Positions 28,249-51,891 of a DNA stretch of 52,284 nt are shown piece after piece. This stretch comes from Elainella saxicola E1 (GTDB lineage: Bacteria; Cyanobacteriota; Cyanobacteriia; Elainellales; Elainellaceae): positions 10,238 to 62,521 of the forward strand of contig LUGL01000001.1 of the NCBI GenBank assembly GCA_002796835.1, read 5' to 3'. The position numbers and the translations under genes were made by a program. The notes beneath the pieces were generated by a model, which saw nothing but the letters and a program-made list of their open reading frames with translations, was not told the DNA's origin and did no database searches. How positions within the stretch are numbered: position 1 is the stretch's first letter; each line of letters starts with the position of its first letter.

Positions 28249-28391
28249 ATTATTGAGGTTTCACAATTCAAAAAGATTTTTGAAGGCGAGGTAAAACTTA
28301 CCTGGTATGGGCGCAGAACCCTGGTGTACTTTCTACCATCATGATTAGGGCAATCTGATCCTCCCCCCGGTTGTTTTACTGATGGGAGTTG

Positions 28392-34744: not shown

Positions 34745-34762
34745 TCCTTGGGGAGAATTTGC

Positions 34763-36820
34763 ATGGCTACACCAAAATATACTCGCTCAAAAGGACAGGT
34801 TCTCCATCGATTCGAGCCAGGAGCCGTTGCCACTGCTCCTGCCGGAACAGCAGAAATTGTTAAACACTTTGCCCGGAGACAAGGTAAACTCCGTGCAGAC
34901 CTCCGCGATGCAGTTGAGCAAGAACTTAGGCGATGGCGGCATTTCGACTCTCAGATGCAAGCTTTTCTGAATCACACAGCAGATTTAGTTCCAGTAGATA
35001 TTGCTTCTGTTCAGGGGTATCGGCTTCAAACGCAAGAATGTGCCAAGTGTGGGGCTATTCGTAATACTGGTGATCCACAATGGCGCAAGCAAGCTGATGC
35101 TCCATGCCATCAATGTGGGCATCCGACGTTGAATGAAATCCCATTTGTGTTTGCTCATGCTGATGGCACGATGCTGCAACTAACGCCAGAACCCTGTCCA
35201 GAGCATGGCTACAAATTTTTGATCTTGGAACGTACTGCCTCAAAACGTTGGCGCTGTCGAGTTTCAGGTTGTAGCCATATCAAACAAATTAATCGTGCTC
35301 TATCGACACGATCCCTTATGCGACAGTCTCAAATTGCAAACCGAGTCCAAGAAGAAACAGGTAAACTTCCTAACCCAATGATGAGCCTCTCTCCTGTTTC
35401 AGACAAAAAGCTTCAAGTGGTTCACTCGATTTCACGCATTGATCCAACTCCCAACTTTGCCAAGTTCAAAAATTTGCCAGAGAGTCTAAAGGTGCTTTTA
35501 TGTATTCATTTAGAATATCTAAGCTGGACTGGCAAACCTCTCCTGGAACTTTATGAAGCCCTGACAGTTGTTGGTAATGGCAGCCAAGAAGATCAAGCTA
35601 AAGAAGGACAGCTGATTCAGGCAATGCGAGATAGTGGTTTGGACGAAGCCATGATACAAACCATTCTGGCAAAAAATAAAGCCATTCAAGAAAATAATGT
35701 TGGTGGTCCGGTCGTATCTCAGGTACGTCAGGCATTGCAGAAGCTTTCTTCCGATGCAATGGATTTATTAGGAGATGCTCAAGCAGAAGCGGAAACTCAT
35801 GATCGCGGAGAGCCACTAACCCCTAAACAAGATAATGCCCGAACTTTACGCGAGCAGCTAATTAATCAAGGTGTTCTGTTGGATCTCAAACGGGAAAATA
35901 TTGACGCTACGATCCAACGCCTCAGCGCTTCCCCATTCAGCTTCAGCTTAGAAGAGGCAAGGGATGACATGCGGACTAAATTGGGTATTACCCAAGCTGA
36001 GATTATTCAGGATTTACCAATCATGCATCTTGCCTATGGCTACACCCGCCTCTCCCACCAGCCAGAAGCAGCCGTTTTATGGGCGTTTGATCGTGCAAAG
36101 TTTGATTTGGCAGGAGACGAGCCAACAGGAAACTGGATACCTGCACCAGTCTATAAGCTTGAAACCGAAGCACTATCATTCCAATTCGACTCCAAGCGGA
36201 TTTTGCGCTGGTTGCATGCGAATAATCTTGCTCCCGACCCTCAAACCATTTCGGAACCAACTTTGTGGTTACTTCAACGCCATAGTCGAATTCACAGCCG
36301 AAGTGGACCTGCTTTCAGCGATGTACTTGACTCCGATTTTCTAATTCCCTGGTTGGTCGGTTCAGCCATTCACAGCGCGACACACCTTATGATTCGGGCG
36401 ATCGCAGACCAAAGCAGTTTTGGTGAAACGGCATTATCTGAACACTTGTTACTTAGCCTCAACCAATCCCTTATTTTCGTGAATCGCCTACAAGAATTTT
36501 CTCTTGGTGGGCTTAAAACATTTTTTGAACAGCGGCTCGATCAAGCCTTCAAGAGTTTGCTAGAAGAACGCAACGATTGTATGTTTGATCCGTATTGTGA
36601 GGAAACTCTGGGCGGAGCTTGCGCGGGATGCCTGCATCTTCCTGAAGTGGTGTGTCGCCTTTTTAACAATGCTCTCAGCCGGATCTTACTTTATGGTGGA
36701 GATTTAAGAACGGACATTGAGGGTGACGGTTCAGAGCGAACTCTTTGGAAGAATCCAAATCTTGAGGCTATAACTGGGCAGCAAATTTTTATTGGTTTCT
36801 GGGACAGGTGCATTGATTAA
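34763..36820 (+). CDS. drmB: DISARM protein DrmB (DUF1998)
   Basis: A 685-residue protein. The ATG at 34763 follows a GGGGAG site seven bases upstream, which decides the start over an in-frame TTG at 34748. An N-terminal zinc-ribbon-like region contains CAKCG...CHQCG (about 93-122), then CPEHGY and CRVSGC. The C-terminal part contains the DUF1998 hallmark block around CEETLGGACAGCLHLPEVVC (about 616-635), with further Cys residues that suggest a bound metal. DUF1998 proteins partner with the DrmA helicase in all DISARM types. The last DISARM gene here, it ends 12 bp before an IS terminal repeat. Confidence 0.88.
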   Translation: MATPKYTRSKGQVLHRFEPGAVATAPAGTAEIVKHFARRQGKLRADLRDAVEQELRRWRHFDSQMQAFLNHTADLVPVDIASVQGYRLQTQECAKCGAIRNTGDPQWRKQADAPCHQCGHPTLNEIPFVFAHADGTMLQLTPEPCPEHGYKFLILERTASKRWRCRVSGCSHIKQINRALSTRSLMRQSQIANRVQEETGKLPNPMMSLSPVSDKKLQVVHSISRIDPTPNFAKFKNLPESLKVLLCIHLEYLSWTGKPLLELYEALTVVGNGSQEDQAKEGQLIQAMRDSGLDEAMIQTILAKNKAIQENNVGGPVVSQVRQALQKLSSDAMDLLGDAQAEAETHDRGEPLTPKQDNARTLREQLINQGVLLDLKRENIDATIQRLSASPFSFSLEEARDDMRTKLGITQAEIIQDLPIMHLAYGYTRLSHQPEAAVLWAFDRAKFDLAGDEPTGNWIPAPVYKLETEALSFQFDSKRILRWLHANNLAPDPQTISEPTLWLLQRHSRIHSRSGPAFSDVLDSDFLIPWLVGSAIHSATHLMIRAIADQSSFGETALSEHLLLSLNQSLIFVNRLQEFSLGGLKTFFEQRLDQAFKSLLEERNDCMFDPYCEETLGGACAGCLHLPEVVCRLFNNALSRILLYGGDLRTDIEGDGSERTLWKNPNLEAITGQQIFIGFWDRCID

Positions 36821-37079: not shown

Positions 37080-39290
37080 CTACAACCAGAACTGTCGATC
37101 GCCCTCCAACAAGCTACTTGGGTATATCCCTTGAAGCCGCAATCCAGCTACCCGATCCGCGCCATAAATCGGCATGGGTAAGCGAGGTGCTTTCAAAGCT
37201 CCATGGTGGAGCAGTGTGAGTTTCAACGTTGTATCGATAATTTGCTCAATTGGTGCAGGTTCCCCTGCTTCATGCACTGTTAATCGGAGGGGTCTGGCTA
37301 ACCCTACTCGTTCAGACACTTGGGTTGTAATCAGCACTGCTTCACGCGAGGATAACCGCAAAGCTAAGCCCTGTGATGGTGCAACCAAAGTTCTTTGGCT
37401 CAAGTTATATAACCTTGGGATGCCAGATTTTCTGCATTCCACCAAAATAAACCTTGCCCCGATCGCTCGTGCTCGCTCCAACAAATGTGGAATCTCTTGA
37501 CCGCAGAATCGCCCATCACGGTAAATTAAAACCGTTTTGCCTTCCAGCGTTGCTGGTAACAAGCGTTCTAGTAATCGTTGCGAAATTTCTTCTCCTTCCA
37601 GTAGAGCATCCTCCAAGACATAACGAATAAATTCGCCCTGCTTTCCGTAAAGCCGTACACTAGCACAGGCATTCAGGGTTCCAGCAAGTTTGGCTTTGGG
37701 CGATCGCGAGATGTCTAATCCAATGAAGTAATCAGCGATTTCCAACGGCTCTGCCAGAATGAAAGGCAAATTCCCTAGCTTTGCTAAAATTCCTGGAATG
37801 ACCTGGTTCAGAATTTGTCCATGCTCAACCTCGGCTAACGTACCATCGTAAATCACTTGGCTTGCGATATTTCGACGCAGAAGCAGCGAGTAGACCAGAT
37901 GATAAAAACTGCCGCCATCCTCTTCATCGGCTTCGCGATCGCTCTGTGGCAGAAAGGTCAACACGATATCAACTGGAACTGTGATTAACTTATTGACGGT
38001 TCTCTCCAGAGCAGCTCTTGCCTCAGCAGCACTAAGCCCGCTAATCGATAGAGCTTTGCGGTCAATGATTTCACTTTCAAACCCATATCGTTTTAGTCGC
38101 TGTTGAGCTGCTTCCAGGAAACCGTTCACACTACCGTCGCATAACTTCAGCGCAGCAATCCGAATCATGCCAGGTTGAAAATTGGGATGACGTTGGTAAA
38201 CTCCACCAGCTGATAGCCCCTGTAAAATACGCCCTCGAACACCCGTAACTCCTTTACCAAACAGCAACGGGGTCTGGTCTACAGGAGTTGCTGGCTGCCA
38301 GAAGAGATCAGGATGTTCCAGGCTGTTCAAGCTCCGTCCAATTTCAAAACCGTAAGGCATCAGCACATCTGTTGCCTGGGCTTTGAAGGTGGTTAGCAAT
38401 CGTTGCCGTTCCGCATGAGGAATTTTTGTGAATCGTAAAAACTGTCCGTAATCAAATCCAAACCGTCCTGCCGTTTCAGCCGTAATCGAAGGACGAAGCG
38501 CGGAAAGTGGATAGTGAAACGTTTTTTTCCCTTTACCAAACTGGATTGCAACCACTAATTCATCGTCATGAGCAGTCTCGATGATGTGCCGTGTTGAGTA
38601 ACCTGCTGCAAGTTTGAGCAGACGATCGCGATGCTCCCTGACGACACCGACAAGCCGAACAATACTGCCACTACCGCCCATGTCAAAATCCTGAACGGGC
38701 AAGCCCACTAGCAAATCTTCTGGATTCCCTTGAGCCGCATTGTTGGCATAAAAATCCGCCAAGCTCCCTGAGTATGCAATCTCAGTTTGAACTGCTAATG
38801 ACAATGCTGCGCGTTCTTGTCCTTGAAGTTCGATCGTTTCTGCCCAAAACTTAATTTTGCGATTTACCGCTAATCCTGCGATCGATGTGACAGAAATTGG
38901 TCTGAAGGGTTGCTTGATCCGTAGAATCTGAAACGCGAGTTTGGACAGAACAGATGATGATGAGATCGCAGCACTGTCTTGTTGAAGTCGGAGAGGTTGA
39001 TCGCACAAATCTGGAATATCTTGCTGGAGTGCTGAGAGGGCTATCTGGCACTGAGACAAATTCAATGCTGGTCGTTGCATTGGAGTGAGTATCCACAGCC
39101 GATACTCATACCAAATGACAACAGCGTGTTCTAGTTTTCGCGAGAGATGGAAACTCAAGCGATTTCCAGTTTCTTGATCAATCTCAGGGGTTATCGTAAA
39201 GCTGGCAAGATTAGACTGAGCGATCGCCAGTGGAAACACTTCACTGAGAAAGACCAATGCTTGTGAGGGAGCAGCGGTAATAGCAGTCAT
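37080..39290 (-). CDS. Long prokaryotic Argonaute (pAgo) with intact PIWI tetrad
   Basis: A 736-residue protein. I chose the ATG at 39290, which overlaps the nuclease stop (ATGA), rather than the longer frame up to 39338. The layout fits N, PAZ-like, MID and PIWI. The MID region (about 440-520) holds conserved Tyr/Arg/Gln/Lys positions (YSLLLRR, SQVI, ILAKLG). In PIWI the likely DEDD tetrad is D526 (GLD), a Glu finger in LLEGEEIS (565-568), D592 (YRDGR) and D712 (YGAD). That makes it a catalytically competent long pAgo, similar in size and C-terminus (QFWL) to cyanobacterial DNA-guided, DNA-cleaving Argonautes. It is co-transcribed with a Cas4-like nuclease and probably attacks plasmid or phage DNA. 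An IS remnant follows directly downstream. Confidence 0.9.
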   Translation of the reverse strand: MTAITAAPSQALVFLSEVFPLAIAQSNLASFTITPEIDQETGNRLSFHLSRKLEHAVVIWYEYRLWILTPMQRPALNLSQCQIALSALQQDIPDLCDQPLRLQQDSAAISSSSVLSKLAFQILRIKQPFRPISVTSIAGLAVNRKIKFWAETIELQGQERAALSLAVQTEIAYSGSLADFYANNAAQGNPEDLLVGLPVQDFDMGGSGSIVRLVGVVREHRDRLLKLAAGYSTRHIIETAHDDELVVAIQFGKGKKTFHYPLSALRPSITAETAGRFGFDYGQFLRFTKIPHAERQRLLTTFKAQATDVLMPYGFEIGRSLNSLEHPDLFWQPATPVDQTPLLFGKGVTGVRGRILQGLSAGGVYQRHPNFQPGMIRIAALKLCDGSVNGFLEAAQQRLKRYGFESEIIDRKALSISGLSAAEARAALERTVNKLITVPVDIVLTFLPQSDREADEEDGGSFYHLVYSLLLRRNIASQVIYDGTLAEVEHGQILNQVIPGILAKLGNLPFILAEPLEIADYFIGLDISRSPKAKLAGTLNACASVRLYGKQGEFIRYVLEDALLEGEEISQRLLERLLPATLEGKTVLIYRDGRFCGQEIPHLLERARAIGARFILVECRKSGIPRLYNLSQRTLVAPSQGLALRLSSREAVLITTQVSERVGLARPLRLTVHEAGEPAPIEQIIDTTLKLTLLHHGALKAPRLPMPIYGADRVAGLRLQGIYPSSLLEGDRQFWL

Positions 39291-40108
39291 GCAGAGACCT
39301 CCTGGGCAGCAAATTGACAAATTGAGTTGAACTGGCAATATTGGCAGCGAAAGCCGGGGTTGGGCGGAAAAATGCGATCGAACTCCGCAGGGTTCTTGCG
39401 GTACTGTTTCTTCTCCGCCTCATGCCGTTGAGCCAAGCGCGCTAGCTCTATCCGAACAGCATTCAGTTGGCTCATGGTTGCCGTAATTGGTTCTGACCAC
39501 TTGCAAAGTTCAAGGTTATAGAACGAGGCGATCGTTCGTTTGCGGGGAAAGAGGTAGCTGGCTGCCAGCAGATAAACAAATGCCTGTCGTTCATCAAAAT
39601 CAGAATGGCCCGTCTTCAAATCCAGAATGTGTAGTGTTCCATCTGGTTCAAGCAGGATGCAGTCGATCGCAGCGAAGAGGTTGAAGGTTATGCTTCCGTA
39701 ATAGAGCTTGATGGGTTCTGGGAAACCCTCATTACCTCGGCTCAGGCTAAAAATTCGCTTTTTGAGAAGAATAGGGTTCTCATAATACTGAGACAAAATT
39801 TGGTTCAGTCGTTCCTGCACTTCATCAGCTTGCTGATCGAGTTTAAGAATCTCGGAAACCTGTGCGACTCCATCAATATCCTTAAGTCGTTGAGAGTTCA
39901 AGTGAAATTCATAAACCCCCTGCTGTGCTAAGAGACCAATAGTTTGCGGAACGGTGTCTTGTGCCAAGATTGCCGCAACATCCGGTTCTCGCTTCCGAAC
40001 TTTGGCATGCCCCCGCTTCATGTCACAGTGCCAATGCTCCTGCCCGACTGCCGAAGCAAAAAGTGACCAAAGATTGTAGCTTGCAAACGGTAGCCAGCTT
40101 TTTCCCAT
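39287..40108 (-). CDS. Cas4-like PD-(D/E)XK nuclease with likely iron-sulfur cluster, partner of pAgo
   Basis: A 273-residue protein. The ATG at 40108 has a GAGGAG site eight bases upstream and is preferred over the TTG at 40153. The nuclease core shows D149 (AAIDCILL), then D163-L-K165 (ILDLKTG) with Q175 and Y179 after it, the PD-(D/E)XK pattern of the Cas4/RecB family. Four Cys residues, C28 near the N-terminus and C255, C258 and C264 near the C-terminus, match the 4Fe-4S arrangement of Cas4 and AddB-type nucleases. Its stop overlaps the Argonaute start. Cas4-like partners are known next to several cyanobacterial pAgos and may trim guides or degrade targets; the role is unproven here. Divergent from the operon starting at 40286. 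Confidence 0.85.
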   Translation of the reverse strand: MGKSWLPFASYNLWSLFASAVGQEHWHCDMKRGHAKVRKREPDVAAILAQDTVPQTIGLLAQQGVYEFHLNSQRLKDIDGVAQVSEILKLDQQADEVQERLNQILSQYYENPILLKKRIFSLSRGNEGFPEPIKLYYGSITFNLFAAIDCILLEPDGTLHILDLKTGHSDFDERQAFVYLLAASYLFPRKRTIASFYNLELCKWSEPITATMSQLNAVRIELARLAQRHEAEKKQYRKNPAEFDRIFPPNPGFRCQYCQFNSICQFAAQEVSA

Positions 40109-40218
40109 CTCACCAATCTCCTCATATGGCTGCTGATAAGCGTTGCGCCTCAATGCCAGCCCTGATCTTCAAACTCTAAATTCGCAGTATTTAAGGGCGC
40201 ACGTTTGACAAAACAAAA

Positions 40219-40285: not shown

Positions 40286-40726
40286 ATGATTCCACCCTTT
40301 AACGAAGATGGATTATTACCGCCCGGAATCCACACCGCAGCTTCGTGGCAGGAGTTTGCTCGTCGTTTTGGGCACACTCCACACCGACAGAACCTACTTT
40401 CAGGAATGAAAGTGGCTCTGTTAGGGCTGCGAGGGGCTGGCTGCCAGGTTGTCTACGTCGATGGCAGTTTCGTGACGGCAAAGGAACATCCCAATGACTT
40501 TGATATTTGCTGGGATATTACGGGAGTCAATCCCGAGCAACTCGATCCGCTGTTACGTAACAACAGTCGAGTTGCTCAGAAGGTGAAGTATCTTGGCGAA
40601 TTTTTTCCGGCACAAACCACTGAAGGAGTGAGCGGAAAAATATTTCTAGATTTTTTTCAAATCGATAAGGCAACGGGAAACTCCAAAGGCATTGTTGCCC
40701 TAAACCTGTGGGAGATATGGTCATGA
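40286..40726 (+). CDS. DUF6932-like nucleotidyltransferase-fold protein, putative toxin-like partner
   Basis: A 146-residue protein. I start it at the ATG at 40286 (MIPPFNEDGLLPPG), the conserved beginning of this family, not at the upstream TTG. It contains G60-S61 followed by D71 and D73 (GSF...NDFDICWD). This is the GS-x(n)-DxD signature of minimal nucleotidyltransferases such as MNT and AbiEii. Such proteins modify proteins or tRNA with nucleotides in toxin-antitoxin pairs. The stop overlaps the start of an XRE/ImmA-IrrE protein (ATGA), which suggests a functional pair. The family name is from memory of the N-terminal motif, and enzymatic activity is inference. Confidence 0.72.
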   Translation: MIPPFNEDGLLPPGIHTAASWQEFARRFGHTPHRQNLLSGMKVALLGLRGAGCQVVYVDGSFVTAKEHPNDFDICWDITGVNPEQLDPLLRNNSRVAQKVKYLGEFFPAQTTEGVSGKIFLDFFQIDKATGNSKGIVALNLWEIWS

Positions 40727-42186
40727 TTAAGAATGAGCGGCAATACCGCATTACTAAAGCTCAAATCGAGAAGTTTTCAAATGCCCTCACTCAATTGTCG
40801 GCTTCATCTCAGCAGGATCAGTCTGTCCATCCCATCCTGCGGAAAGCCGAAAGAGAGTCACTGGAATCTCAGCTTACGGAACTGCGCGTCCAAGTCGAAG
40901 AGTATGAGGCATTGAAGGAGGGACAACAAGCAGTCCTGGAATTGGATTCGCTTGAAGCCTTACCACACGCCCTAATTAAAGCTCGGATTGCTGCTGGATT
41001 GACTCAGAAGGATCTGGCTGAGCGATTGGGAATTAAGGAACAGCAAGTCCAACGTTATGAGGATACAGAGTACGCTTCTGCCAGCTTCGCACGGTTGCTA
41101 GAAGTTAGTCGTGCGATCGGCGTTCAAGTACGCGAAGAAGTCTTGTTGCCCAGAGTTTCACCTGCTGATTTGTTGAGCCGATTGAGTCAGGCTGGAATCG
41201 ATCGCGACCTTATTCTCAACCGTTTCTTTCCCAACTTGAGTGCTGAGACTTCACACGGTGAAGATGAAGTCTCTACTAATGCCCTAGTACTTCGTGCCGC
41301 AACTGCTTTGAAGCGAGTGTTTGGATGGTCATTGGCTGATCTATTTAGCTCTAGACCGCTTCAGCTTGATTTAACTCCCCTTGGAGCTGTTCACTTCAAA
41401 GTTAATGCAAAAGCAAATCAGAAACGATTAAGTGCGTACACAGTTTATGCTCATTTCCTAGCATTGCTTGTACTAGAAGCCACAGCAGATTTACCAGCGA
41501 AGCCGATCCCAACCGATCCAAAGCAAGTTCGTGAAGCCATCTGCTCAACGTATGGTGAACTAACGTTTTCAAATGCTTTGCAGTATGTCTGGAGTTTGGG
41601 TATACCCGTTCTTCCACTGAGGGATGCTGGCGCATTTCACGGTGCCTTCTGGCGCGTCAACGGACGAAACGTAATTGTTCTAAAGCAGCGCACTAGATCC
41701 TCGGCTCGCTGGCTGCTCGATCTTCTCCATGAACTTTGGCATGCTGCTCAAGAACCAGAGCGAACTGAGCGAACTGTGGTTGAAGAAGGGGATATTGCAC
41801 AGGAACGGCAAGACTCACCTGAAGAAAAGACGGCTACAAGATTTGGCGAACACATTCTACTCAACGGTCGCCAAAAGGAATTGGTTGAGATGTGTACCGA
41901 AGAAGCAAAAGGTAGTATTGAGCGACTCAAGAATGTCGTCTTTAAAGTTGCTGCAAGGGAAAAAGTTTTAGTTGGAGCTTTAGCTGATCACATTGCTTAT
42001 CGGCTATCACTCCAAGGTGAAAACTGGTGGGGTGCTGCAACCAATCTACAAACGGAAGATATTGAGCCGTGGCAGATTGCTCGTGACGTACTCCTAGAGA
42101 AGATTAATTTTGAAGTTTTGAATGATGTGGATCAAACACTCTTGATCAGAGCTTTGTCAGATAACTTGCCTCAGCAGGAATTTTAG
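40723..42186 (+). CDS. XRE-family HTH protein fused to ImmA/IrrE-type metallopeptidase
   Basis: A 487-residue protein. The ATG at 40723 overlaps the previous stop and has GGGAG eight bases upstream. The N-terminal 70 residues are a helical coil (QIEKFSNALTQL...). An XRE helix-turn-helix lies at about 82-135 (AGLTQKDLAERLGI, QRYEDTEY). The C-terminal half holds the zinc-peptidase motif HELWH (336-340), with an EE pair near 354-355 as a possible third ligand. ImmA/IrrE proteases cleave repressors or antitoxins after stress; fusion to the DNA-binding domain gives a single-chain regulator. It is probably the antitoxin or regulator of the preceding NTase-like gene and may also control the genes after it, which begin only 21 bp later. 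Confidence 0.86.
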   Translation: MIKNERQYRITKAQIEKFSNALTQLSASSQQDQSVHPILRKAERESLESQLTELRVQVEEYEALKEGQQAVLELDSLEALPHALIKARIAAGLTQKDLAERLGIKEQQVQRYEDTEYASASFARLLEVSRAIGVQVREEVLLPRVSPADLLSRLSQAGIDRDLILNRFFPNLSAETSHGEDEVSTNALVLRAATALKRVFGWSLADLFSSRPLQLDLTPLGAVHFKVNAKANQKRLSAYTVYAHFLALLVLEATADLPAKPIPTDPKQVREAICSTYGELTFSNALQYVWSLGIPVLPLRDAGAFHGAFWRVNGRNVIVLKQRTRSSARWLLDLLHELWHAAQEPERTERTVVEEGDIAQERQDSPEEKTATRFGEHILLNGRQKELVEMCTEEAKGSIERLKNVVFKVAAREKVLVGALADHIAYRLSLQGENWWGAATNLQTEDIEPWQIARDVLLEKINFEVLNDVDQTLLIRALSDNLPQQEF

Positions 42187-42207: not shown

Positions 42208-42852
42208 ATGTCGGATGATTGGAATGTTGAGGAGGAATTAAAACCACTCAAACTAAAATGCACTAGCTCAGACTGCAAAAATGGGCATCACTCGTATAGA
42301 CCTACACCTAAACAAAAGGCAGCAAATACAGTAGGACAGTGTCGATCCTGTGATGAGACGCCTTCCTTTGAGTGGGAGCGGTTACATAAGCTTGATCCCG
42401 AAGACCTAGACTATACGATCGCTGCCTTGAAGAATGAACTCATTCGCCAACATTACTGGACAAATGAGATTCCTCAGCAGGTTGAAAATTATGCCCGCCG
42501 TAAGGGGGTAAAAGGAATGGAGGCGGCAGTAGAAAAGCGGATTCGCGACTCTATGAGTCCACCTGCCAATGATTTTGATGGGCGTCAAACGCCCGCCGAG
42601 GATTCAGCCAAAGTCAATGCAGTTCACTTTGCTCAGCACGCCACCGCTTCTTGTTGTCGCAAATGTATAGAGTATTGGTATGGCATTCCTCGAGATCGAT
42701 CGCTGACAGAACACGAAATATCGTATTTATCCAGATTGGGAATGAGATTTATCAGTGAACGATTTCCGCTACTAACTGAAACAGGAGAGAAGGTCTCACC
42801 CATTCGTCGGGCTGGCAAATCAAATACCAAAGGTCAAAAACAGACGGAGTGA
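42208..42852 (+). CDS. Zinc-ribbon protein with DUF4186-like C-terminus
   Basis: A 214-residue protein with GGAGG upstream of the ATG. The N-terminal 50 residues hold a Cys pattern CTSSDC...CRSC (about 17-48), resembling a zinc ribbon. The C-terminal part contains HFAQHATASCCRKCIEYWYG (about 138-157), with closely spaced His/Cys that look like metal ligands. This is followed by IPRDRSLTEHEISYL. The latter block matches what I remember of DUF4186, a family of unknown function found in bacteria and phages. It is the first of five tightly packed genes leading to the radical SAM enzyme; its stop overlaps a possible GTG start of that gene. A DNA- or RNA-binding role is plausible but unproven. Confidence 0.7.
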   Translation: MSDDWNVEEELKPLKLKCTSSDCKNGHHSYRPTPKQKAANTVGQCRSCDETPSFEWERLHKLDPEDLDYTIAALKNELIRQHYWTNEIPQQVENYARRKGVKGMEAAVEKRIRDSMSPPANDFDGRQTPAEDSAKVNAVHFAQHATASCCRKCIEYWYGIPRDRSLTEHEISYLSRLGMRFISERFPLLTETGEKVSPIRRAGKSNTKGQKQTE

Positions 42853-42860
42853 AAGTTGCA

Positions 42861-43871
42861 ATGGTGATTGACACTGAGGCTTTATCTGCACGTTATCGAG
42901 AAGCATCTGTGGATTTGTACAGTAAGCGGTTGCGGATTACAAATTTCCACAATACACAGCAAGAAAATGACCTTACAGAGCCTCCTAATTGCAAGGGCTT
43001 TGGGCGTATTCGGCACTTCAGGCGATCGAGCAACAATGATTGGCCTTGCAACCCATTACCGATCGATCCAGCTTGTAGAGCACTGGGTCTACAAGCAACC
43101 AACATGATTCGAGCGCAAGTTTTTCAAAGTGCAGCTTGTAATTGGCGATGTTGGTACTGCTTCGTTCCATTTGAGCTGCTGTCTGCCAATCGTAAATATT
43201 CCGAGTGGATGAGTCCATCTCAATTGATTGATCTTTATTTAGATCAACCTGACCCTCCTTCAATGATTGATTTAACAGGAGGACAACCTGACTTGGTTCC
43301 AGAGTGGGTTCCTTGGATGATGGCGGAACTGAAAGAGCGAGGTTTAGAGCGCCAAGTTTATCTTTGGTCTGACGACAACTTGAGCAACGACTACTTCTGG
43401 CAGTTTTTATCAGACGCGGATCTTGAACTCGTCGCGACTTATCCAAAGTATGGTCGTGTCTGCTGCTTTAAAGGATTTAATTCTGAGTCTTTTGCATTTA
43501 ATACTTGTGCTGAACCTGATCTCTTTGATCGGCAGTTTCAATTAATAAAGCGATTGCTGGAGTTAGGAATTGACATCTACGCTTATGCAACATTCACAAT
43601 ACCAGCAGCTTCAGAAATTGTTGCAGATATGGCTCGTTTTGTCGATCGACTCCAGGCAATAGATCACGATCTTCCACTCCGAACGGTTCCGCTGGAAATT
43701 CAAGCGTTTACCCCAGTTAAAGGACGACTCAATGATGGCACTCAAGCTGCATTAAGGAACCAATACCTTGCGATTGAAGCTTGGAAAACAGAATTGGAAA
43801 ATCGATACTCCTGTATTGAGCGATCGCAATCAATCACAGACATTTCCTTACACACAAAGCAACTTCTATGA
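42861..43871 (+). CDS. Radical SAM superfamily enzyme
   Basis: A 336-residue protein. The 4Fe-4S/SAM motif is CNWRCWYC (CX3CX2C: C93, C97, C100). The GGE-like motif that binds the SAM amino group is TGGQPDLVPEW (139-149), in the right place after the first strand-helix. An N-terminal extension of about 85 residues carries further Cys residues (C44, C63, C72) that could hold a second metal site. ATG 42861 is used; a GTG at 42849 overlapping the upstream stop (GTGA) is an alternative. Radical SAM enzymes generate a 5'-deoxyadenosyl radical for difficult C-H chemistry. The substrate is not apparent. Methyltransferase, ASCH and kinase genes downstream in the same operon favour a nucleotide or nucleic-acid substrate. 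The stop overlaps the next gene (ATGA). Confidence 0.85.
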   Translation: MVIDTEALSARYREASVDLYSKRLRITNFHNTQQENDLTEPPNCKGFGRIRHFRRSSNNDWPCNPLPIDPACRALGLQATNMIRAQVFQSAACNWRCWYCFVPFELLSANRKYSEWMSPSQLIDLYLDQPDPPSMIDLTGGQPDLVPEWVPWMMAELKERGLERQVYLWSDDNLSNDYFWQFLSDADLELVATYPKYGRVCCFKGFNSESFAFNTCAEPDLFDRQFQLIKRLLELGIDIYAYATFTIPAASEIVADMARFVDRLQAIDHDLPLRTVPLEIQAFTPVKGRLNDGTQAALRNQYLAIEAWKTELENRYSCIERSQSITDISLHTKQLL

Positions 43872-45169
43872 CAATTACTGAAATCGAGTCACAAGCGTTT
43901 GAACAGTTTGTTGAACGATGGGTTTTGCATGCGATTGCATCTGGAGTAGGCACGTTCAATCAGTTGGTCAAGGCATTACCCAGTGTTGATCCAATCATCA
44001 TTGCTCACACGTTGCGAAGACTAAGTTCTAATTCAACCATGCCTCAAGATATTTGGGAAAAATTGAACACTTCAGCAAGTCAGACCTCAACAAGGATTCC
44101 CTATTCTCACTACCAGATTGGATTGCCCCTGCCACATCCACTTGACTTTGACTGGCGTTTTACTGATGGATCGGTGGAGTACTTGTTGAAATCTTGTGAG
44201 ACATTGACGAACCTAAATGATACCATAGTACTACTTGGGGCTCCTAGCTTATTTCGAGGTGGTCTTGCACTGTCCTGGCAACGACGGATGATTTTGCTTG
44301 AGGCAAACAAAACCATGACAAATTATCTGACCTCACTGACCTCCCGATCTCAAGTTATGCGGTCTGACCTTTTGAATGGTGATGTCCCAAGATTATCAGG
44401 GGCTGCAGTCGTTATGGATCCGCCCTGGTATTTTGAACACATTCAGTCATTTTTATGGGCTGCTTGCCAAATCTGTCAATTAGGTGGGCATATTTTTGTA
44501 AGTCTCCCACCCGTTGGCACTAGACCTGGAATCAACCAGGAGTGGAAGGAAACATTGGTATGGGCAAAGCGACTTGGGCTTAAACTCGTTCATCGAGAGG
44601 ACTTGTCACTTTCTTATCTAACTCCAGTGTTCGAGCGCAATGCCTTTAGAGTTGCAGGGCTTCCTGCAATCGAGCATGACTGGAGACGAGGGGATTTAGC
44701 AATTTTTCAACGGGTAAGCAGCACCCAGGTTTCCCGTCCTGGCGTGGCGCAGCAACAGGCTACTTGGTCTGAAGTTAGTTTGCTCGGTGTGCGGATTCGA
44801 GTTCGCCCTTGGACTAGTTCAGAATTTGAAAATCCAAAATTAGTACCAATCCTGCCAGGTAATGTACTCACCTCTGTGAGTCGTCGGGATTCTCGACGAC
44901 AGTTAGCTGACGTCTGGACATCTGGGAACCGGGTCTTTATATGCCAAGGGCGCGGTATACTTTGGCATGTTTTGCAGGCAATTTCAACCGGAGACCAACC
45001 TCATGCTGTAGTAGAAGCATTTTTGAAGCGATCGCTAGATCCAAACGAAGGAGTCCTGATTGCTGAAGTAACCAATCAAATTCTGTCTCTGATCAGCCTG
45101 GAACAAAAGGAGAACTTACTCTTTAATGACTACTGGAACGATACGAACCTCACTCTTGCCGCTAGTTAA
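43868..45169 (+). CDS. Class I methyltransferase-like protein with DPPW motif
   Basis: A 433-residue protein overlapping the radical SAM gene (ATGA). An N-terminal winged-helix-like region (about 8-55) is followed by a Rossmann-like core. A degenerate glycine motif (LLGAPSLFRGG, 122-132), an acidic residue after the second strand (LLEANK, 143-148) and DPPW at 184-187 appear in order. DPPW is the motif IV of N6-adenine/N4-cytosine type amino methyltransferases, including the MT-A70 family. The glycine loop departs from the usual FxGxG, so SAM binding may be altered or lost. The C-terminal 170 residues are unrecognised. In this context it could act on a modified base or serve as a DNA-recognition subunit. 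Confidence 0.7.
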   Translation: MTITEIESQAFEQFVERWVLHAIASGVGTFNQLVKALPSVDPIIIAHTLRRLSSNSTMPQDIWEKLNTSASQTSTRIPYSHYQIGLPLPHPLDFDWRFTDGSVEYLLKSCETLTNLNDTIVLLGAPSLFRGGLALSWQRRMILLEANKTMTNYLTSLTSRSQVMRSDLLNGDVPRLSGAAVVMDPPWYFEHIQSFLWAACQICQLGGHIFVSLPPVGTRPGINQEWKETLVWAKRLGLKLVHREDLSLSYLTPVFERNAFRVAGLPAIEHDWRRGDLAIFQRVSSTQVSRPGVAQQQATWSEVSLLGVRIRVRPWTSSEFENPKLVPILPGNVLTSVSRRDSRRQLADVWTSGNRVFICQGRGILWHVLQAISTGDQPHAVVEAFLKRSLDPNEGVLIAEVTNQILSLISLEQKENLLFNDYWNDTNLTLAAS

Positions 45170-45665
45170 TGAGCTGAAGTCAGCTGTGAAGGGAGATTTA
45201 TTTTGGGAAAATTATCTCTCCCCTCTGTCTGAGCAAGCTTCTTTCCCATTCGCATTACATCTAGGGGTTTTTATAGAGCCGTATCTCCAGTTCATTTTAG
45301 AGGGCAAAAAAACGATAGAATCTCGATTTGCCACTCGCCGATTTGCGCCGTACAACCAGGTTGAGAAAGGGGATGTGATCCTCCTAAAGCAATCTTGTGG
45401 TCCTATTATTGGAATTTGCCAGGTAACGCATTGCTGGTTCTACCAACTTGACCCAGAATCCTGGGAAACAATTCAACGCGACTTTGCCCAAGCTTTGTGC
45501 GCTCAGGATCCAGAGTTTTGGCAGCAGCGGCAGGCTGCCTGCTATGCAACCCTCATGAGAATTCAATTCGTTAAAGTGATTGAGCCAATTCCATTTGCTA
45601 AACGCGATCGTCGGGGATGGGTAGTTTTGCAATCTAGCGATCAGCAGCTAAAACTTGAGCTATAG
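45126..45665 (+). CDS. ASCH-domain (PUA-like) protein
   Basis: A 179-residue protein. The start at 45126 overlaps the previous gene by 44 nt; a shorter GTG start near 45186 is possible. The ASCH core spans about residues 44-165: LHLGVFIEPYLQFILEGKK, then the KTIESRF signature (K-x2-E-x-R), VEKGDVILLKQS and GICQVTHCW. ASCH proteins have the PUA-like fold and bind RNA or nucleosides; at least one group hydrolyses N4-acetylcytidine. Between a methyltransferase-like gene and a P-loop kinase, a role in recognising or processing a modified nucleoside is a reasonable inference. The two genes are separated by only three bases. Confidence 0.8.
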   Translation: MTTGTIRTSLLPLVNELKSAVKGDLFWENYLSPLSEQASFPFALHLGVFIEPYLQFILEGKKTIESRFATRRFAPYNQVEKGDVILLKQSCGPIIGICQVTHCWFYQLDPESWETIQRDFAQALCAQDPEFWQQRQAACYATLMRIQFVKVIEPIPFAKRDRRGWVVLQSSDQQLKLEL

Positions 45666-45668
45666 CCT

Positions 45669-46217
45669 ATGAAGCCAGCCGTAATTGCTTTTTCGGGTAG
45701 CATTGCCAGTGGAAAGTCTACTCTCTCGCAAGAAGTTGCTAAGACATTCCAGTGGAAGCGCGCTAGTTTTGGTGATTATGTTCGGTCGGTTGCTCAAAAT
45801 CGGGGAATTGCAAACTCGCGAGAGGTTTTACAGGCGATCGGAGCAGATTTACTTCAAAGGGATATGGAAGGCTTCTGTCGTACAGTTCTAGCCCAGGCAG
45901 ATTGGCAACTCGGACAGCCCCTTGTTATTGATGGCATACGTCACGTAGAAGTGCTTGATAACCTGAAGCAGATTGTTGCGCCAATGCCACTATTTCTAGT
46001 TTTGGTCACTGTTGATGAGTCTACTCGAACGAATCGATTGCTTGAAAGAGGAACGGTCGATTTAGAGAAGTATCAACATTTGGAACACGACTCTACCGAA
46101 CAACAGGTAAAGTCTGCGCTAGCAAATATAGCCGATTTAGTAATGGATAGTGGACATTCACTTGAAGAAAATGTCGAACAGCTTGTTAGCTGGCTCAAAC
46201 ATATTGATTCAATCTAA
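45669..46217 (+). CDS. P-loop nucleotide/nucleoside-monophosphate kinase-like protein
   Basis: A 182-residue protein. Walker A is GSIASGKST (10-18). It is followed by FGDYVRSVAQ, QAIGADLLQ and VIDGIRHVEVL (about 89-99), a layout typical of dephospho-CoA kinase, cytidylate kinase and phage deoxynucleoside monophosphate kinases. A mobile LID-like region with HLEHDSTEQQV follows (about 137-147). No membrane segment is present. A dedicated NMP kinase is what a pathway needs to raise an unusual nucleotide to the triphosphate, which fits with the radical SAM and ASCH genes upstream; the substrate is unknown. Last gene of the seven-gene operon, convergent with tniQ 32 bp away. Confidence 0.78.
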   Translation: MKPAVIAFSGSIASGKSTLSQEVAKTFQWKRASFGDYVRSVAQNRGIANSREVLQAIGADLLQRDMEGFCRTVLAQADWQLGQPLVIDGIRHVEVLDNLKQIVAPMPLFLVLVTVDESTRTNRLLERGTVDLEKYQHLEHDSTEQQVKSALANIADLVMDSGHSLEENVEQLVSWLKHIDSI

Positions 46218-46249: not shown

Positions 46250-46765
46250 CTAATAGGGCTTTTGCTTCTTCACCATGCTTTTGAAGGACATTCCACAGTG
46301 AACACACCCCTGTTGTTTTAATAGTCCCTCAACTGAAAAGTTCTTCTCACATGCCCAACATCTGGGAAGTAATCGCAGTCTGTGGCGATCGCATCCCCCC
46401 GTTGAATACAACTGCCAAGCAATGCGGTGGTATGGGTCCTCCAAACAGCAGGCTGCGCAAATGCGGATGGTGTTGGGTTGCGATCGCTCACCTTTGGGAG
46501 GAAACATTTGCCATAGTCTATCAACCTCGACTTGCGTAACCTTGCTGAGCGCCTCTACCTGTTTTTGCTTGGGTCTCCTTCCACCAAATAGAAGATCCTC
46601 CCAGCGATTGATCGCAGTACCAACTTCAAGGATCTCTCCTAATTGGCTGGCAGACGAAATCCGATTGCCTTTCGCTCGTCGGAAGCGGTACAAGAAGCTG
46701 GCAATGCTTTCTCCTTCCAGGGGGTGGACGATCGTATAAGGGTGGTTTGGATCAAAGGTGTACAC
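46250..46765 (-). CDS. tniQ: TniQ-family transposition protein (short form)
   Basis: A 171-residue protein. The N-terminus (HPLEGESIASFLYRFRRAKG) is the conserved opening of TniQ/TnsD proteins. The C-terminal half carries zinc-binding Cys/His pairs: CAACC, CDRHR, CWAC and CVHCG. The short length matches the TniQ of type V-K CRISPR-associated transposons (about 165 aa) rather than the long TnsD target selectors. TniQ caps the TnsC filament and links it to the targeting complex. It lies 18 bp downstream of tnsC in a tnsB-tnsC-tniQ operon on the minus strand. No Cas12k gene follows it here; the neighbouring gene on the far side is in the opposite direction. Confidence 0.88.
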   Translation of the reverse strand: MYTFDPNHPYTIVHPLEGESIASFLYRFRRAKGNRISSASQLGEILEVGTAINRWEDLLFGGRRPKQKQVEALSKVTQVEVDRLWQMFPPKGERSQPNTIRICAACCLEDPYHRIAWQLYSTGGCDRHRLRLLPRCWACEKNFSVEGLLKQQGCVHCGMSFKSMVKKQKPY

Positions 46766-46783: not shown

Positions 46784-47653
46784 TTAATCGCTCGGCGCAG
46801 CTACCGTTATTTCACCATATCTTTCCAAAACTTGATTCAGTACCTGGTCATCAAAGTAGAAGGCTTCGTCCGTTGAGGAATTCTTAACGACCTGGATCAG
46901 GATTTCAATCAGCGATCCGAAATTTCCAACAGAGGCATTAAATAAATTTGTTGTTGCTTTTGAATCAATAAGCTTGACCGACTCCGGCAGTTTGAGAAAG
47001 TCCCGCTCAAAGGTTTTGATCAGACCTGAGAATTCAGTTGCGGAAAGGTTACTAAATGGGTAGTGCGGCTGGAAGTATTCAAATAAGTCGAGTTTCTTCA
47101 ACACTTTGTCCAGTCCGGTTGGACCCATCAAGACAACTGAAATTCCACAGTCCTTCGCTAGCTCAGTAAGGTCACAAATGGCCTTTTCAGTCAGATAGTG
47201 AGCATTATCTACCAACAGCGCTTCGAGCCTGAATAATTCCGCTGCGTCATACGCTCGGAAGCGATAATCCTCTGGCTGTCCACCTCGGGCACCCCGGCCT
47301 AGCTCCTTTGTGATTTGATTGAACAGTTTTCGCGAGTGCCAGGACGTGAGGCACTTCGTGTAGTGTGCCCGCAACGGAATTGGTCGCAATGCCCCCTTCT
47401 GACCACTAATGCGATCGACACACTCAGTAGCAATTGTGGTCTTGCCGCATCTCTGGGGTCCAATGATGCGACCACACAGTCTATCCTCACAGCGTTCTCT
47501 CAGCCACTGTTCCAACTCAGTTAAGTGCGATGTCTCAGCAAAGAACTCGCGGTTGATGAGCGCCTTGATTTGCGCTCTCACCTTGCTGGCATTGGGCGCA
47601 GGCTGGTGCGAGTGGTTTAAGGGAACACGCCTTGTCTCTGGCTCTGGTAACAT
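46784..47653 (-). CDS. tnsC: TnsC, AAA+ transposition ATPase
   Basis: A 289-residue protein with Walker A GPQRCGKTT (65-73) and Walker B ALLVDNAHYL (around D149). The order and length match TnsC of type V-K-like Tn7 relatives (about 275 aa), not the 550-aa TnsC of Tn7. TnsC forms ATP-dependent filaments on target DNA and recruits TnsB. The helix before the P-loop (LTELEQWLRERCEDRLCGRIIG) is typical of this group. It starts 15 bp after the tnsB stop, in the same operon. Confidence 0.9.
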   Translation of the reverse strand: MLPEPETRRVPLNHSHQPAPNASKVRAQIKALINREFFAETSHLTELEQWLRERCEDRLCGRIIGPQRCGKTTIATECVDRISGQKGALRPIPLRAHYTKCLTSWHSRKLFNQITKELGRGARGGQPEDYRFRAYDAAELFRLEALLVDNAHYLTEKAICDLTELAKDCGISVVLMGPTGLDKVLKKLDLFEYFQPHYPFSNLSATEFSGLIKTFERDFLKLPESVKLIDSKATTNLFNASVGNFGSLIEILIQVVKNSSTDEAFYFDDQVLNQVLERYGEITVAAPSD

Positions 47654-47668
47654 AGCAATCTAACCTCA

Positions 47669-49795
47669 TCAAAACCGTTTGGTGCGGCGCGGAACAATCA
47701 GCTTGGGCCGCTGTTCCTCGGCTAGCTTTAGCTGCTCTTCAAAGAATTCTACCTGACTTTTTTCCTGAAGACGCTTTTGCATATCGATCACGTTGCTGGA
47801 TTCAGTAGGCGACGCTATTGATTGACTGTTGTCTACACCAGTAATCGAGACAATGGGATTTTGCGAGACTGTCACTGGTTCCGGGGTGAGCGTAGAGGCT
47901 GCTGTAAGTCCCTGGTCTGACTTCAATGGTGTGGTGACTTCTGGTGTCACGAGATCCATAGCGACTTCTACAGGTTGGGGGTTTGAGTTTTCAGGGCGAC
48001 TAGAAGCTTTTGCGGCTGCCCGTAAACGCTTGTGTTCCTTGGTTTGCTGTTCTTTCTTATTATTTTTTCTTGTGTCGATCAAGTCGGTTTGATTACCTTG
48101 ATATTTTAACCGGGTGCCCCGATTGGACTGTTTAGTCTGTTTGGCTTTCGCGGCCACAGCCTTTCGGATTTCCTTCAAATCAGCCAAGCTCAATGTTTCA
48201 GTATCAAGTTTGTTGAGATTGATTTTGCTAATGTCGAGATTTAATTCATCAATCCACTCATTGAGAAGCTTCACCTCATCCCTGAGCATTTCTACATAGC
48301 CCAGGAATCGCCCTGGCTTCTCATTCACTTCCTTCTCAAAGGCCAGTAGGCGGAGTATGTTGTCCGGGTTGTATCTGAGCGTGACAGATGCAGCATGAAC
48401 GCCCTTTAATACCTCCCCCCTGTATTTCCGTGTCATAAAGCGAACGGTGCCATGACGGTACAGTTTCGCATCAACGACTTTCATCAAACAACTGTCGAGC
48501 TTCCGTTCCTCCATCACGACGGGCAGTTCTTTATCGAGTCCATCTATCCAAACTTCATAGCGAGTTCTCGTCTCAAACTTGGGATGATTGTCGTGATTAT
48601 GAATAGCATACAAATGCCAGGACACCAGTTTGTCGAGGTCTCGTGAACTCAGACATACTTCTGACTCAACATTTTTCGGACGTTTCTGCACGTTAGAACC
48701 AGTGTACCCCGGACACTGGCTCCAAACTTGATGATTCAGTCCGTTAAAAACAGCTTCTATATCCCCTCCATCAGAGACTTTTCGACGCAAATGGCAGGTA
48801 AATCCAATCTCTGCGCTAATCTTTGCTAGCTGTTCGCCAATGGCTTTGACGTGTTTCGAGTCTAAATCTCTGCCACCATCGGTATACAAGTGACGAAAAA
48901 AGCCGTAGGGAATTTTTACATCGCGTAAATCGTAGTCAGCAGGAAAATACTTGGGAAGAATTGCACGTCGAATTAATAAAGCAACTTCTTCCGACCCTGG
49001 TTGCTTTGCACTAAATAAATGACTCAAGATACACTTGGAGAAGGAATCTTTGAGAATCGATAGCCATAGGCGCGTTGCTCCCGCTTCAGGAGGCACCTTG
49101 TGGTCCTTCACTTGCTTAAACTGCAAGACGATTTCATCATTTTCATAATTTGAGAGCACGTCTACTAGAGTGTGGTCAGCCTGTACAACTTTGTTGGGAT
49201 AGGAAGCCTTCAGCACCTTACCATCTCGTGTAGGCAGAAGTGGCTCATGACATTGACCCGCACTGCACTGACCTTCTTTAATTTCTCGCTCCTTAATTAA
49301 GTCTTTGACAATGCCAAGTACTGTTGTGTAGGAAGGGAAATTTTTTGCGTTGTTTTTGTCTGCTTCCTGCTCAACTTTTTCATGAACCTTCACAGCACTC
49401 ATGATTTTGCCGTTTGTACTGCCTTTCTTCCAGGTTTCAACGATGAAAGGCTTCCACAATTGGGTCAGCAAATGGTCACCTTTTTTGCGAGGAGTTTCTG
49501 TTGGAACGGCTTCTTTCCCTCCCCTATAGTACGAACTAAGCCAATTGTAAAAGGTACGTTTAGGAAGATTGTTGTAATATTCGCGTACAGCTTTTATTCT
49601 TCCTTTCTTGATGGACTGATTGAGAGAATCAGCCACCCACTGTATCAGGCGAGGTCGAAATTCAGTTTCTGCTACTCCCTGGTTTACCAGATACTTGACA
49701 AACTCGTGAATATCCGTGCTGTAACTGCTTTCGTCCAGCAATACAGCATCCGCAGAACATTCAGGAAGTTCGGTTGTGAGGCGATCGCCAGACAT
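47669..49795 (-). CDS. tnsB: TnsB, DDE transposase of a Tn7-like/CAST-like element
   Basis: A 708-residue protein. N-terminal DNA-binding helical domains (about 40-175) precede an RNase H-fold catalytic core with the DDE triad D207 (VVQADHTLVD), D306 (LYTDGGRD) and E347 (GGDIEAVFNGLNHQ). The PGYTGSN block that follows is characteristic of the TnsB/MuA-like family. It is longer than ShCAST-type TnsB because of a charged, probably disordered C-terminal tail (about 585-708) that normally ends in a TnsC-contacting hook; the last residues PRRTKRF are basic. TnsB cuts and joins both transposon ends. It reads away from the repeat array at 51153-51321, which marks the left end of the element. Confidence 0.92.
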   Translation of the reverse strand: MSGDRLTTELPECSADAVLLDESSYSTDIHEFVKYLVNQGVAETEFRPRLIQWVADSLNQSIKKGRIKAVREYYNNLPKRTFYNWLSSYYRGGKEAVPTETPRKKGDHLLTQLWKPFIVETWKKGSTNGKIMSAVKVHEKVEQEADKNNAKNFPSYTTVLGIVKDLIKEREIKEGQCSAGQCHEPLLPTRDGKVLKASYPNKVVQADHTLVDVLSNYENDEIVLQFKQVKDHKVPPEAGATRLWLSILKDSFSKCILSHLFSAKQPGSEEVALLIRRAILPKYFPADYDLRDVKIPYGFFRHLYTDGGRDLDSKHVKAIGEQLAKISAEIGFTCHLRRKVSDGGDIEAVFNGLNHQVWSQCPGYTGSNVQKRPKNVESEVCLSSRDLDKLVSWHLYAIHNHDNHPKFETRTRYEVWIDGLDKELPVVMEERKLDSCLMKVVDAKLYRHGTVRFMTRKYRGEVLKGVHAASVTLRYNPDNILRLLAFEKEVNEKPGRFLGYVEMLRDEVKLLNEWIDELNLDISKINLNKLDTETLSLADLKEIRKAVAAKAKQTKQSNRGTRLKYQGNQTDLIDTRKNNKKEQQTKEHKRLRAAAKASSRPENSNPQPVEVAMDLVTPEVTTPLKSDQGLTAASTLTPEPVTVSQNPIVSITGVDNSQSIASPTESSNVIDMQKRLQEKSQVEFFEEQLKLAEEQRPKLIVPRRTKRF

Positions 49796-51321: not shown

Positions 51322-51891
51322 ATCTTCTGCTGACTTGATGTTTATTCAAACAGTTAATAACCCTTTTAGGCCTCCAATTACAACAATGTCTAGTTCTCCA
51401 AATCCATACTTCTAATTTCTTCAATTTATCCCATCTAAGAGAAGAAGGGCAATGATAGCCTGAGGGATCCTTGCAAAAATAACTTGAGTAACCCTCAACT
51501 TAAAGCATACTTTGCTAAGTATGAGAATACTAGAAGTCATGAAGCTTTAATTTTCGAGGCTCCTAGATATTGGGCGTTGAGAATTCAAGTTTTTTAGTTA
51601 TTGTCTACATATTTTTGTATTAAATGCTAATGGAATAACTAATTCACAGATGAATTCATGCGAACTCAAGATCAGAACTGGAAACAGAATTCAGTTTTCC
51701 TTCTATTTCCATTGGAGATGCTGCTTCTTTATATGGAAGTCTTGCCATTTGGCAAAGAAATGCCTTAACTTTTTCTCTACAATGAATATCAGGGAAAGTG
51801 AAAAAGGCAGAGGTCTGCAAAATCACAGTGTCGTGAGGCTTGATGGTCTTTGATTGCCAAGCCAAGCCTCAACTCAATTCTTATTCATATA
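51322..51891. other. Intergenic stretch between transposon end and CRISPR array
   Basis: About 570 bp, AT-rich, without a credible gene, tRNA or tracrRNA anti-repeat that I could identify. The only recognisable piece is a solo IS terminal repeat at 51464-51493, listed separately. The reading frames over 51650-51865 on both strands show no conserved motif. Confidence 0.5.
51464..51493 (+). repeat. Solo ISAzo13-type terminal repeat
   Basis: The sequence beginning GGGATCCTTGCAAAAATAAC and continuing TTGAGTAACC matches the IS end at 36833-36862 at roughly 24 of 30 positions when one gap is allowed. No transposase frame is visible on either side, so it is a solo end or part of a miniature derivative. 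Confidence 0.45.

Follow-up and report, generated by a model that had tools for sequence, protein, structure and literature searches.

The arrangement of five genes packed end to end at positions 42208-46217 of a 52,284-nucleotide stretch of DNA from Elainella saxicola E1 (contig LUGL01000001.1; hereafter the window) raises the question of whether they work together and, if so, on what. An initial annotation made from the sequence had taken these genes, which encode a DUF4186 protein, a radical S-adenosylmethionine (SAM) enzyme, a methyltransferase-like protein, an ASCH-domain protein and a protein resembling nucleoside monophosphate (NMP) kinases, as one functional unit. The analysis revealed a cohesive seven-gene unit that is patchily distributed and found near transposition genes and on plasmids. 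It is read here, tentatively and with rather less than even confidence, as a mobile operon controlled by a toxin-antitoxin-like switch that would make a modified nucleotide, its most likely purpose being genetic conflict in the form of anti-phage defense.

Gene order and conservation of the unit

All five open reading frames (ORFs) are intact, lie on the forward strand and occupy the coordinates first assigned to them. Successive genes meet in a GTGA overlap at 42849, an ATGA overlap at 43868, a 44-nt overlap (45126-45169) and a 3-nt gap (45665/45669). Upstream, a gene for an XRE-type protein ends at 42186, 21 bp before the DUF4186 gene, and is joined by an ATGA overlap to a DUF6932 gene, giving the order DUF6932, XRE/ImmA-like, DUF4186, radical SAM, BpsA-like SAM transferase, ASCH and NMP-kinase-like (Table 1). 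The reading of the packed genes as one unit was confirmed together with every junction and the 21-bp gap, but the five-gene operon, although real, is part of a larger unit of seven genes. The XRE gene, regarded at first as a neighbor that might regulate the operon, is one of its members.

A collection of 84,980 species genomes was scanned with a six-row alignment, which yielded 225 candidate stretches, 87 of them encoding relatives of the radical SAM protein; this number is a lower bound because the scan works by short patterns. Eighty were kept; adding five plasmid loci and the window gives a set of 86 loci. Of these, 65 have at least 4 kb flanking the radical SAM gene in both directions, and the other 21, too near a contig end, were set aside. 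All seven genes are present in 39 of the 65 loci, and the genes accompanying the radical SAM gene occur in 60 (XRE), 59 (DUF4186), 58 (transferase), 58 (ASCH), 61 (kinase) and 48 (DUF6932). The genes are colinear on one strand in 56 loci (trivially in L085, which has the radical SAM gene only) and not in the other nine, with median gaps between successive genes of -4, 3, -4, -4, -26 and -4 nt, values that are approximate at gene starts because the longest ORFs were used. For every pair of the seven genes, the protein distances are correlated (r 0.65-0.92; 46 loci, 1,035 pairs, uncorrected for species relatedness), and the relatives retain the catalytic or metal motifs. Since the gene set is conserved across distant genomes, chance clustering is excluded. 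The initial annotation had proposed to judge its reading by whether the families co-occur elsewhere, and they do so strongly.

The relatives bear 15 phylum labels, one of them belonging to a Thaumarchaeota bin; the labels follow submitters' titles, and many of the genomes are bins. A tree of the radical SAM protein (85 of 86 rows) required 27 phylum-label changes for the 15 labelled groups, against a minimum of 14 and a mean of 54.1 after shuffling. The protein therefore clusters by phylum, yet with more changes than vertical descent alone needs. The simplest form that has both kinase and ASCH genes, without the transferase and DUF6932, is seen in L021 and in L016 (set aside, contig end), and three further loci lack the transferase alone; accordingly, the likely core comprises XRE, DUF4186, radical SAM, ASCH and kinase.

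An eighth gene, for a DUF763 protein, follows the kinase in three alphaproteobacterial loci (L005:11321-12583, L076:8894-10168 and L062:13323-14573), an assignment made by Pfam in L005 and by clustering in the other two.

Table 1. Features of the seven-gene unit and its carrier in the window
Feature	Position	Strand	Evidence or remark
DUF6932, predicted nucleotidyltransferase-like	40286..40726	+	PF22014 1.2e-36 (Pfam); ORF opens at TTG 40205, homologues suggest ATG 40286
XRE helix-turn-helix with C-terminal ImmA-like zincin domain	40723..42186	+	HTH_3 7.5e-9 (Pfam); HExxH and ExxANxFA motifs
DUF4186 with N-terminal Cys/His zinc-ribbon-like extension	42208..42852	+	PF13811 7.8e-23, residues 70-182
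Radical SAM enzyme	42849..43871	+	CxxxCxxC at C97/C101/C104; Radical_SAM 2.5e-6
BpsA-architecture class I SAM-dependent transferase (winged helix, Rossmann, DPPW, C-terminal domain)	43868..45169	+	Predicted structure, Z 23.0
Recombination breakpoint	43900..43998		Sharp identity drop versus L007/L008/L009 at the radical SAM/transferase junction
ASCH-domain protein	45126..45665	+	PF04266 5.1e-6
NMP-kinase-like P-loop protein (AAA_18/AdkA-like)	45669..46217	+	PF13238 5e-13; AAA_17 1e-9
TniQ, end gene of Tn7-like carrier, outside the operon	46250..46765	-	PF06527 2.6e-10; homologue at the same place in L007
TnsC/TniB-type ATPase of carrier transposon	46784..47653	-	AAA_22 7.8e-13; TniB 8.6e-6
TnsB/TniA-type transposase of carrier transposon	47669..49795	-	Mu-transpos_C 2.7e-7

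Predicted functions of the proteins

The radical SAM protein scores 28.2 bits with the Radical_SAM profile, slightly below the cut-off of 29.5, and its CxxxCxxC motif is invariant across the relatives, in which C48 and C206 are likewise conserved. No close solved relative was found by sequence, the matches being to QueE (0.2-0.31) and 5wgg (0.0065). In the adjoining DUF4186 protein, C18, C23, H28, C45 and C48 are conserved among homologues together with an AQHATAxCCRxC core. The AlphaFold2 (AF2) model of this protein (predicted local distance difference test, pLDDT, 91.6) has no match in the PDB (best Foldseek E 1.5, best VIA Z 2.5), which is no proof of a new fold, and in BFVD it matches one uncharacterized giant-virus protein at 1.6e-6.

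DUF4186 genes also occur alone. Solo copies were counted in 67 of 244 genomes of the phylum (66 in one family code plus the window's own), mostly of 115-130 residues in that family, and these short proteins, judging by their length, should lack the N-terminal Cys/His cluster. No other gene of the unit lies nearby in the 20 short stretches read. In 9 of the 20 (L109-L111, L114-L116 and L118-L120), a protein of ∼304 residues encoded on the opposite strand adjoins DUF4186; because the stretches come from kin genomes, no inference is drawn from this neighbor.

The third enzyme had been described as base methyltransferase-like. Its family is closer by sequence to N6-adenineMlase (PF10237; 34 of 53 members, best 1.9e-8) than to BpsA_C, and the window protein itself gives a match to the former at 0.0098, under the cut-off. 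The AF2 model (pLDDT 93.4), however, is better described as a SAM transferase with the architecture of BpsA, the branched-chain polyamine synthase (PF01861; PDB 6j27 and 5xnc), an aminopropyltransferase that is its closest solved fold: residues 5-339, winged helix included, align with 6j27_A as the best VIA match (Z 23.0, rmsd 3.3, 274 residues aligned). The next structural matches, behind BpsA and the related 2qm3, are the RNA methyltransferases PH1948 and METTL5 (Z 17-18, Rossmann part only). Because the full-length fold is nearer BpsA despite the PF10237 matches, a simple N6-adenine methyltransferase identity was set aside, and the protein is called a SAM transferase of open donor chemistry. 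It shares with BpsA the overall architecture, the N-terminal winged helix and the DPP motif. It differs in an additional C-terminal domain and in a weak sequence signal, the BpsA_C profile reaching 3 of 53 members at E<=1 (best 0.0046) and leaving the window protein unmatched. BpsA carries an acidic GDDD loop; at this position the family has G-x-P-x-L.

In the ASCH protein, K62, R67, D83, K159, D161 and W165 are invariant in a 40-row alignment, and among 244 genomes of the phylum its subfamily appears at E<=1e-8 in just one, that of the window. The best near-full-length profile match of the kinase is the AdkA-like 3lw7 (7.2e-12), two higher rows covering only the P-loop region; G15 and K16, R91 and H92, and R123 are invariant in 45 rows. 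A profile comparison of the kinase with DUF4186 gave no match.

Upstream, the DUF6932 protein has G87, S88, P96, D98 and D100 at a frequency of 1.00 in 60 homologues (numbered from 40205), and this GS...PxDxD motif, in which lies the whole basis of the assignment, suggests a nucleotidyltransferase-like protein; no PDB relative was found by profile. In 77 homologues of the XRE protein, H341 and H345 are at 1.00, E342 at 0.97 and E373 at 0.99 (numbered from GTG 40708). Of the 244 phylum genomes, 17 encode DUF6932, one being that of the window, and in about 16 it occurs outside the unit, paired with a short XRE gene. This stand-alone pair was found in 21 of 22 fetched stretches (L144-L154 and L156-L166, some being the same place twice), and these cassettes are homologous to the two upstream genes of the unit. 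They differ from them in that the XRE protein is short (∼150 residues) and lacks the zincin domain, and that no chemistry gene of the unit stands beside them within the ∼1.5 kb fetched on each side. An adjacent two-gene cassette that also occurs alone is a feature of type II-like toxin-antitoxin systems. Cleavage of a repressor by a metallopeptidase is known from CapH/CapP. The same is described for Deinococcus PprI-DdrO, in which an XRE-type repressor is cleaved after DNA damage (PMC10904395).

Some relatives have recruited further nucleotide enzymes. L007, L008, L009 and L012 have a dGTPase gene after the kinase, at the place taken by tniQ in the window; the product scores above the curated cut-off for dGTP triphosphohydrolase in L007 and L012, directly after the kinase, and is a homologue in L009 and in L008, where it is cut short at 214 residues. 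A protein with the dCTP deaminase (DCD) fold, as judged by profile, and a C-terminal hydrophobic stretch is encoded between DUF4186 and radical SAM in L035, L046, L054, L057 and L073 (two clades), and after the kinase in L027 (12968-13771). Because the glutamate that we take to be catalytic in deaminases is replaced in this protein, it may be a sensor rather than an active deaminase. Together with the NMP-kinase profile, these recruited genes lend indirect support to the nucleotide chemistry first proposed for the operon.

Mobility, exchange and neighboring genes

Genes for TniQ, TnsC and TnsB adjoin the operon in the window, and L007 has the same three genes; TnsB, TnsC and TniQ genes at one end are a feature of Tn7-like elements that carry cargo. 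Among 60 related genomes, a true copy is found only in the window's own, two others giving weak partial radical SAM matches. The radical SAM gene is also present in 7 of 72,556 plasmid records, six of which are typed conjugative, and the five plasmid regions read all carry the unit with the same neighbors in the same order. In Tolypothrix, the unit lies inside the 18,401-bp insertion that distinguishes PCC 7712 from PCC 7601, alongside recombinase, DDE transposase and ATPase genes; the accessible part of the report on this insertion (PMC9679502) lists some of the genes and proposes no system.

Set against its near relatives, the window copy is a mosaic. As far as the radical SAM gene extends, identity in 250-base bins is 78-98% with L008 and L009; with L007 it is 80-96%, falling to 73-75% in two DUF4186 bins. 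From the transferase start through the kinase, identity to L007, L008 and L009 is only 50-73%, although L007 and L008 remain 80-91% identical to each other downstream of the breakpoint (70% in the last 13 bases). The DUF4186 gene of L007 is itself divergent (72-80%) from the others. Given the identity break at the radical SAM/transferase junction and the divergence of the L007 DUF4186 gene, the transferase-ASCH-kinase genes, and separately DUF4186, seem to have been swapped block by block, with the radical SAM gene as the stable part. Exchange of the transferase-ASCH-kinase block would be in keeping with an arms race.

The radical SAM protein and the kinase had no match in 50,697 phage records, and two scans of viral contigs revealed no relative of the radical SAM protein. 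Relatives of ASCH (three loci) and DUF4186 (eight loci) do occur on phage contigs, with the rest of the unit absent from the fetched flanks save for one XRE hit (L102). The viral-contig ASCH relative in L093 and L094 (48% identical) is encoded slightly upstream of a presumably DUF5131-like protein, a label that we assign from its sequence.

Several other loci share the window. A long prokaryotic Argonaute of class II with a Cas4-like nuclease is encoded at 37080-40153 on the reverse strand, divergent from the operon, in an arrangement also seen in L007, L008 and L009. Further upstream, a DISARM-like cluster (26225-36820, forward strand) comprises a PLD protein, a C5 cytosine methylase, a helicase and a DrmB-like protein, and positions 3-24410 on the same strand encode a series of large CHAT/TPR proteins, accompanied by a WD40 and a Double-GTPase-like protein. 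A CRISPR array at 51883-52284 has six 37-nt repeats (CTTTCAACTCACCC...), the first degenerate and the last cut by the contig end, and stands just outside an end-repeat-like region at about 49.8-51.3 kb. No Rfam family reached its gathering score in the window.

Proposed mechanism, alternatives and related systems

From this gene content we infer both a chemistry acting on nucleotides and a role in defense. A nucleotide substrate is proposed because an NMP-kinase-like enzyme, an ASCH protein, a SAM transferase and recruited deoxynucleoside triphosphate (dNTP) enzymes are combined in one unit. The XRE protein would repress the operon until infection or DNA damage is sensed and its zincin domain relieves the repression; DUF6932 would be its putative nucleotidyltransferase partner in a cassette of toxin-antitoxin type. 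With the zinc-ribbon DUF4186 protein as helper, the radical SAM enzyme would then modify a nucleoside or nucleotide, to which the BpsA-like enzyme, where present, would add a SAM-derived group; the ASCH protein may bind the modified nucleoside and the kinase may phosphorylate it toward the triphosphate. The product could be an antimetabolite or an altered substrate for phage polymerases, and in loci that have a dGTPase or dCTP-deaminase-like partner, this protein would deplete the competing normal dNTPs or act as their sensor. Because the core is without a nuclease, such a product is preferred to a mark that needs a restriction enzyme; it is the simplest reading, by analogy with viperin, whose way of working the unit may share without membership. 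That the unit represents a new inducible antiviral class in all these respects, with a protease-released switch, a radical-SAM pathway to a hitherto unknown modified (deoxy)nucleotide, an aminopropyl or aminocarboxypropyl group added by a BpsA-derived transferase, its own NMP kinase, dNTP-pool enzymes and transferase-ASCH-kinase cassettes swapped in an arms race so as to change the product, is a bolder proposition that we consider unlikely.

Several results weigh against the reading of a nucleotide-modifying defense operon. The ASCH protein and kinase could act on RNA instead. The window operon is without a dGTPase, and the DCD-like proteins of other loci may be inactive, the four tested scoring 57-85 bits against the dCTP-deaminase cut-off of 92.8. 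Peptidase_M78 does not match the C-terminal domain of the XRE protein at E<=1, so the "ImmA-like" label stands on motifs. The viperin equivalog NF038283 gave 19.2 bits against a cut-off of 180. Finally, flanking genes revealed no enrichment in PADLOC defense families, with 102 families among 128 flanking proteins (sampled from 393 eligible ORFs at 77 loci and including a few in-operon dGTPase and DCD-like accessories) versus 211 among 127 control proteins drawn at random from cyanobacterial stretches, a single phylum; this test is weak because the tool counts families and not the proteins hit, and it was therefore left unused for the defense claim.

One alternative is hypermodification of nucleic-acid bases, in which a modified dNTP or a change made in place would mark the DNA or RNA of the host or element and the ASCH protein would read or install the mark. 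The NMP-type kinase, the DPPW-bearing SAM transferase and the ASCH protein would all suit such a pathway, ASCH, a PUA-like domain, being linked with modified bases (Bell et al., PMC7641849), and the dGTPase of four loci could clear a competing dNTP. Against this, no nuclease is found among the seven core families, the transferase is missing in 7 of 65 loci and no phage copy was detected; the likening to phage hypermodification clusters in the initial annotation is not matched by any phage copy of the radical SAM or kinase gene. This alternative is judged unlikely. The dGTPase and dCTP-deaminase-like partners, being deoxynucleotide enzymes, argue against modification or repair of tRNA or rRNA, as does a patchy distribution unlike that of housekeeping RNA modification. 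In such a pathway, the radical SAM enzyme and transferase would alter an RNA base, ASCH would bind RNA and the kinase would act on RNA ends or decay nucleotides. The structural proximity of the transferase to PH1948 and METTL5 after BpsA and 2qm3 (Z 17-18), and the general tie of PUA/ASCH domains to RNA (PMC7641849), speak for it, and on balance it is considered improbable.

The stand-alone cassettes of DUF6932 and XRE, together with carriage on plasmids and transposons, would also be expected of a toxin-antitoxin addiction or abortive infection module that mainly stabilizes a mobile element, with a DUF6932 nucleotidyltransferase toxin, an XRE/ImmA-like antitoxin and trigger, and radical SAM genes that make a toxic nucleotide or neutralize it. 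Only 48 of the 65 loci have DUF6932, however, and the chemistry genes persist in the rest; such a module is judged distinctly unlikely. Synthesis of a small molecule, either a nucleoside antibiotic or a polyamine-like compound, by BpsA-like aminopropyl or aminocarboxypropyl transfer would account for the BpsA fold over 274 residues with the winged helix included (Z 23.0), and the radical SAM enzyme and kinase would suit nucleoside natural products. No transporter was found among the seven core families by Pfam, the transferase is optional, and BpsA_C touches 3 of 53 members with a best E of 0.0046; this is the least probable of the explanations weighed. A mobile, switch-controlled operon that makes a modified nucleotide for defense remains our tentative preference.

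If this preferred reading is true, organisms under ∼15 phylum labels would have in common a previously undescribed route to a modified nucleotide, one that a toxin-antitoxin-like switch controls and that transposons and plasmids spread, and roles would be gained for DUF4186 and DUF6932. Even without a defense role, the gene unit is real and conserved, and the radical SAM profile makes its detection in genomes easy. In the literature searched, which excluded bioRxiv and most subscription journals, no description of the seven-gene set and no paper naming DUF6932 was found, in agreement with the first impression that no defense system with this set has been described.

Among known systems, anti-phage dCTP deaminases and dGTPases resemble the unit in that such a gene is part of the operon in some relatives, but they differ in that neither is in the window's operon and both are accessories in the relatives. 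Restriction-modification systems include an endonuclease, whereas no nuclease matched among the seven families in the window by Pfam, and only in a few relatives does an HNH or DUF763 gene come after the unit. Another likeness is offered by (PIN)-GNAT-EVE operons, which carry an ASCH domain, in some cases fused to XRE, with an AAA_17 ATPase (PMC7641849), much as ASCH (5.1e-6) stands beside an AAA_17-type P-loop protein (1e-9) in the window; given this report, the ASCH-kinase pair is a building block already known elsewhere. No GNAT, EVE or PIN match was found at E<=0.1 by Pfam among the ten proteins between 37083 and 46765, and the unit instead holds the radical SAM, DUF4186 and SAM transferase genes.

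The prokaryotic viperins (pVip) with their nucleotide kinases share with the unit a radical SAM gene beside a small NMP-kinase-like gene and a weak profile similarity: PADLOC gave 24.1 bits with pVip over residues 95-167 of the radical SAM protein and 38.2 bits with VakA, which we take to be a viperin-associated kinase. Viperin membership, considered for these matches, was ruled out by the equivalog score of 19.2 against 180 bits. The unit differs further in its DUF4186, BpsA-like, ASCH and XRE/DUF6932 genes, with which we know of no viperin locus. Viperins make 3'-deoxy-3',4'-didehydro nucleotides; if the proposed chemistry is correct, the unit would constitute a second radical-SAM nucleotide pathway beside that of viperin and a possible source of new chain terminators.

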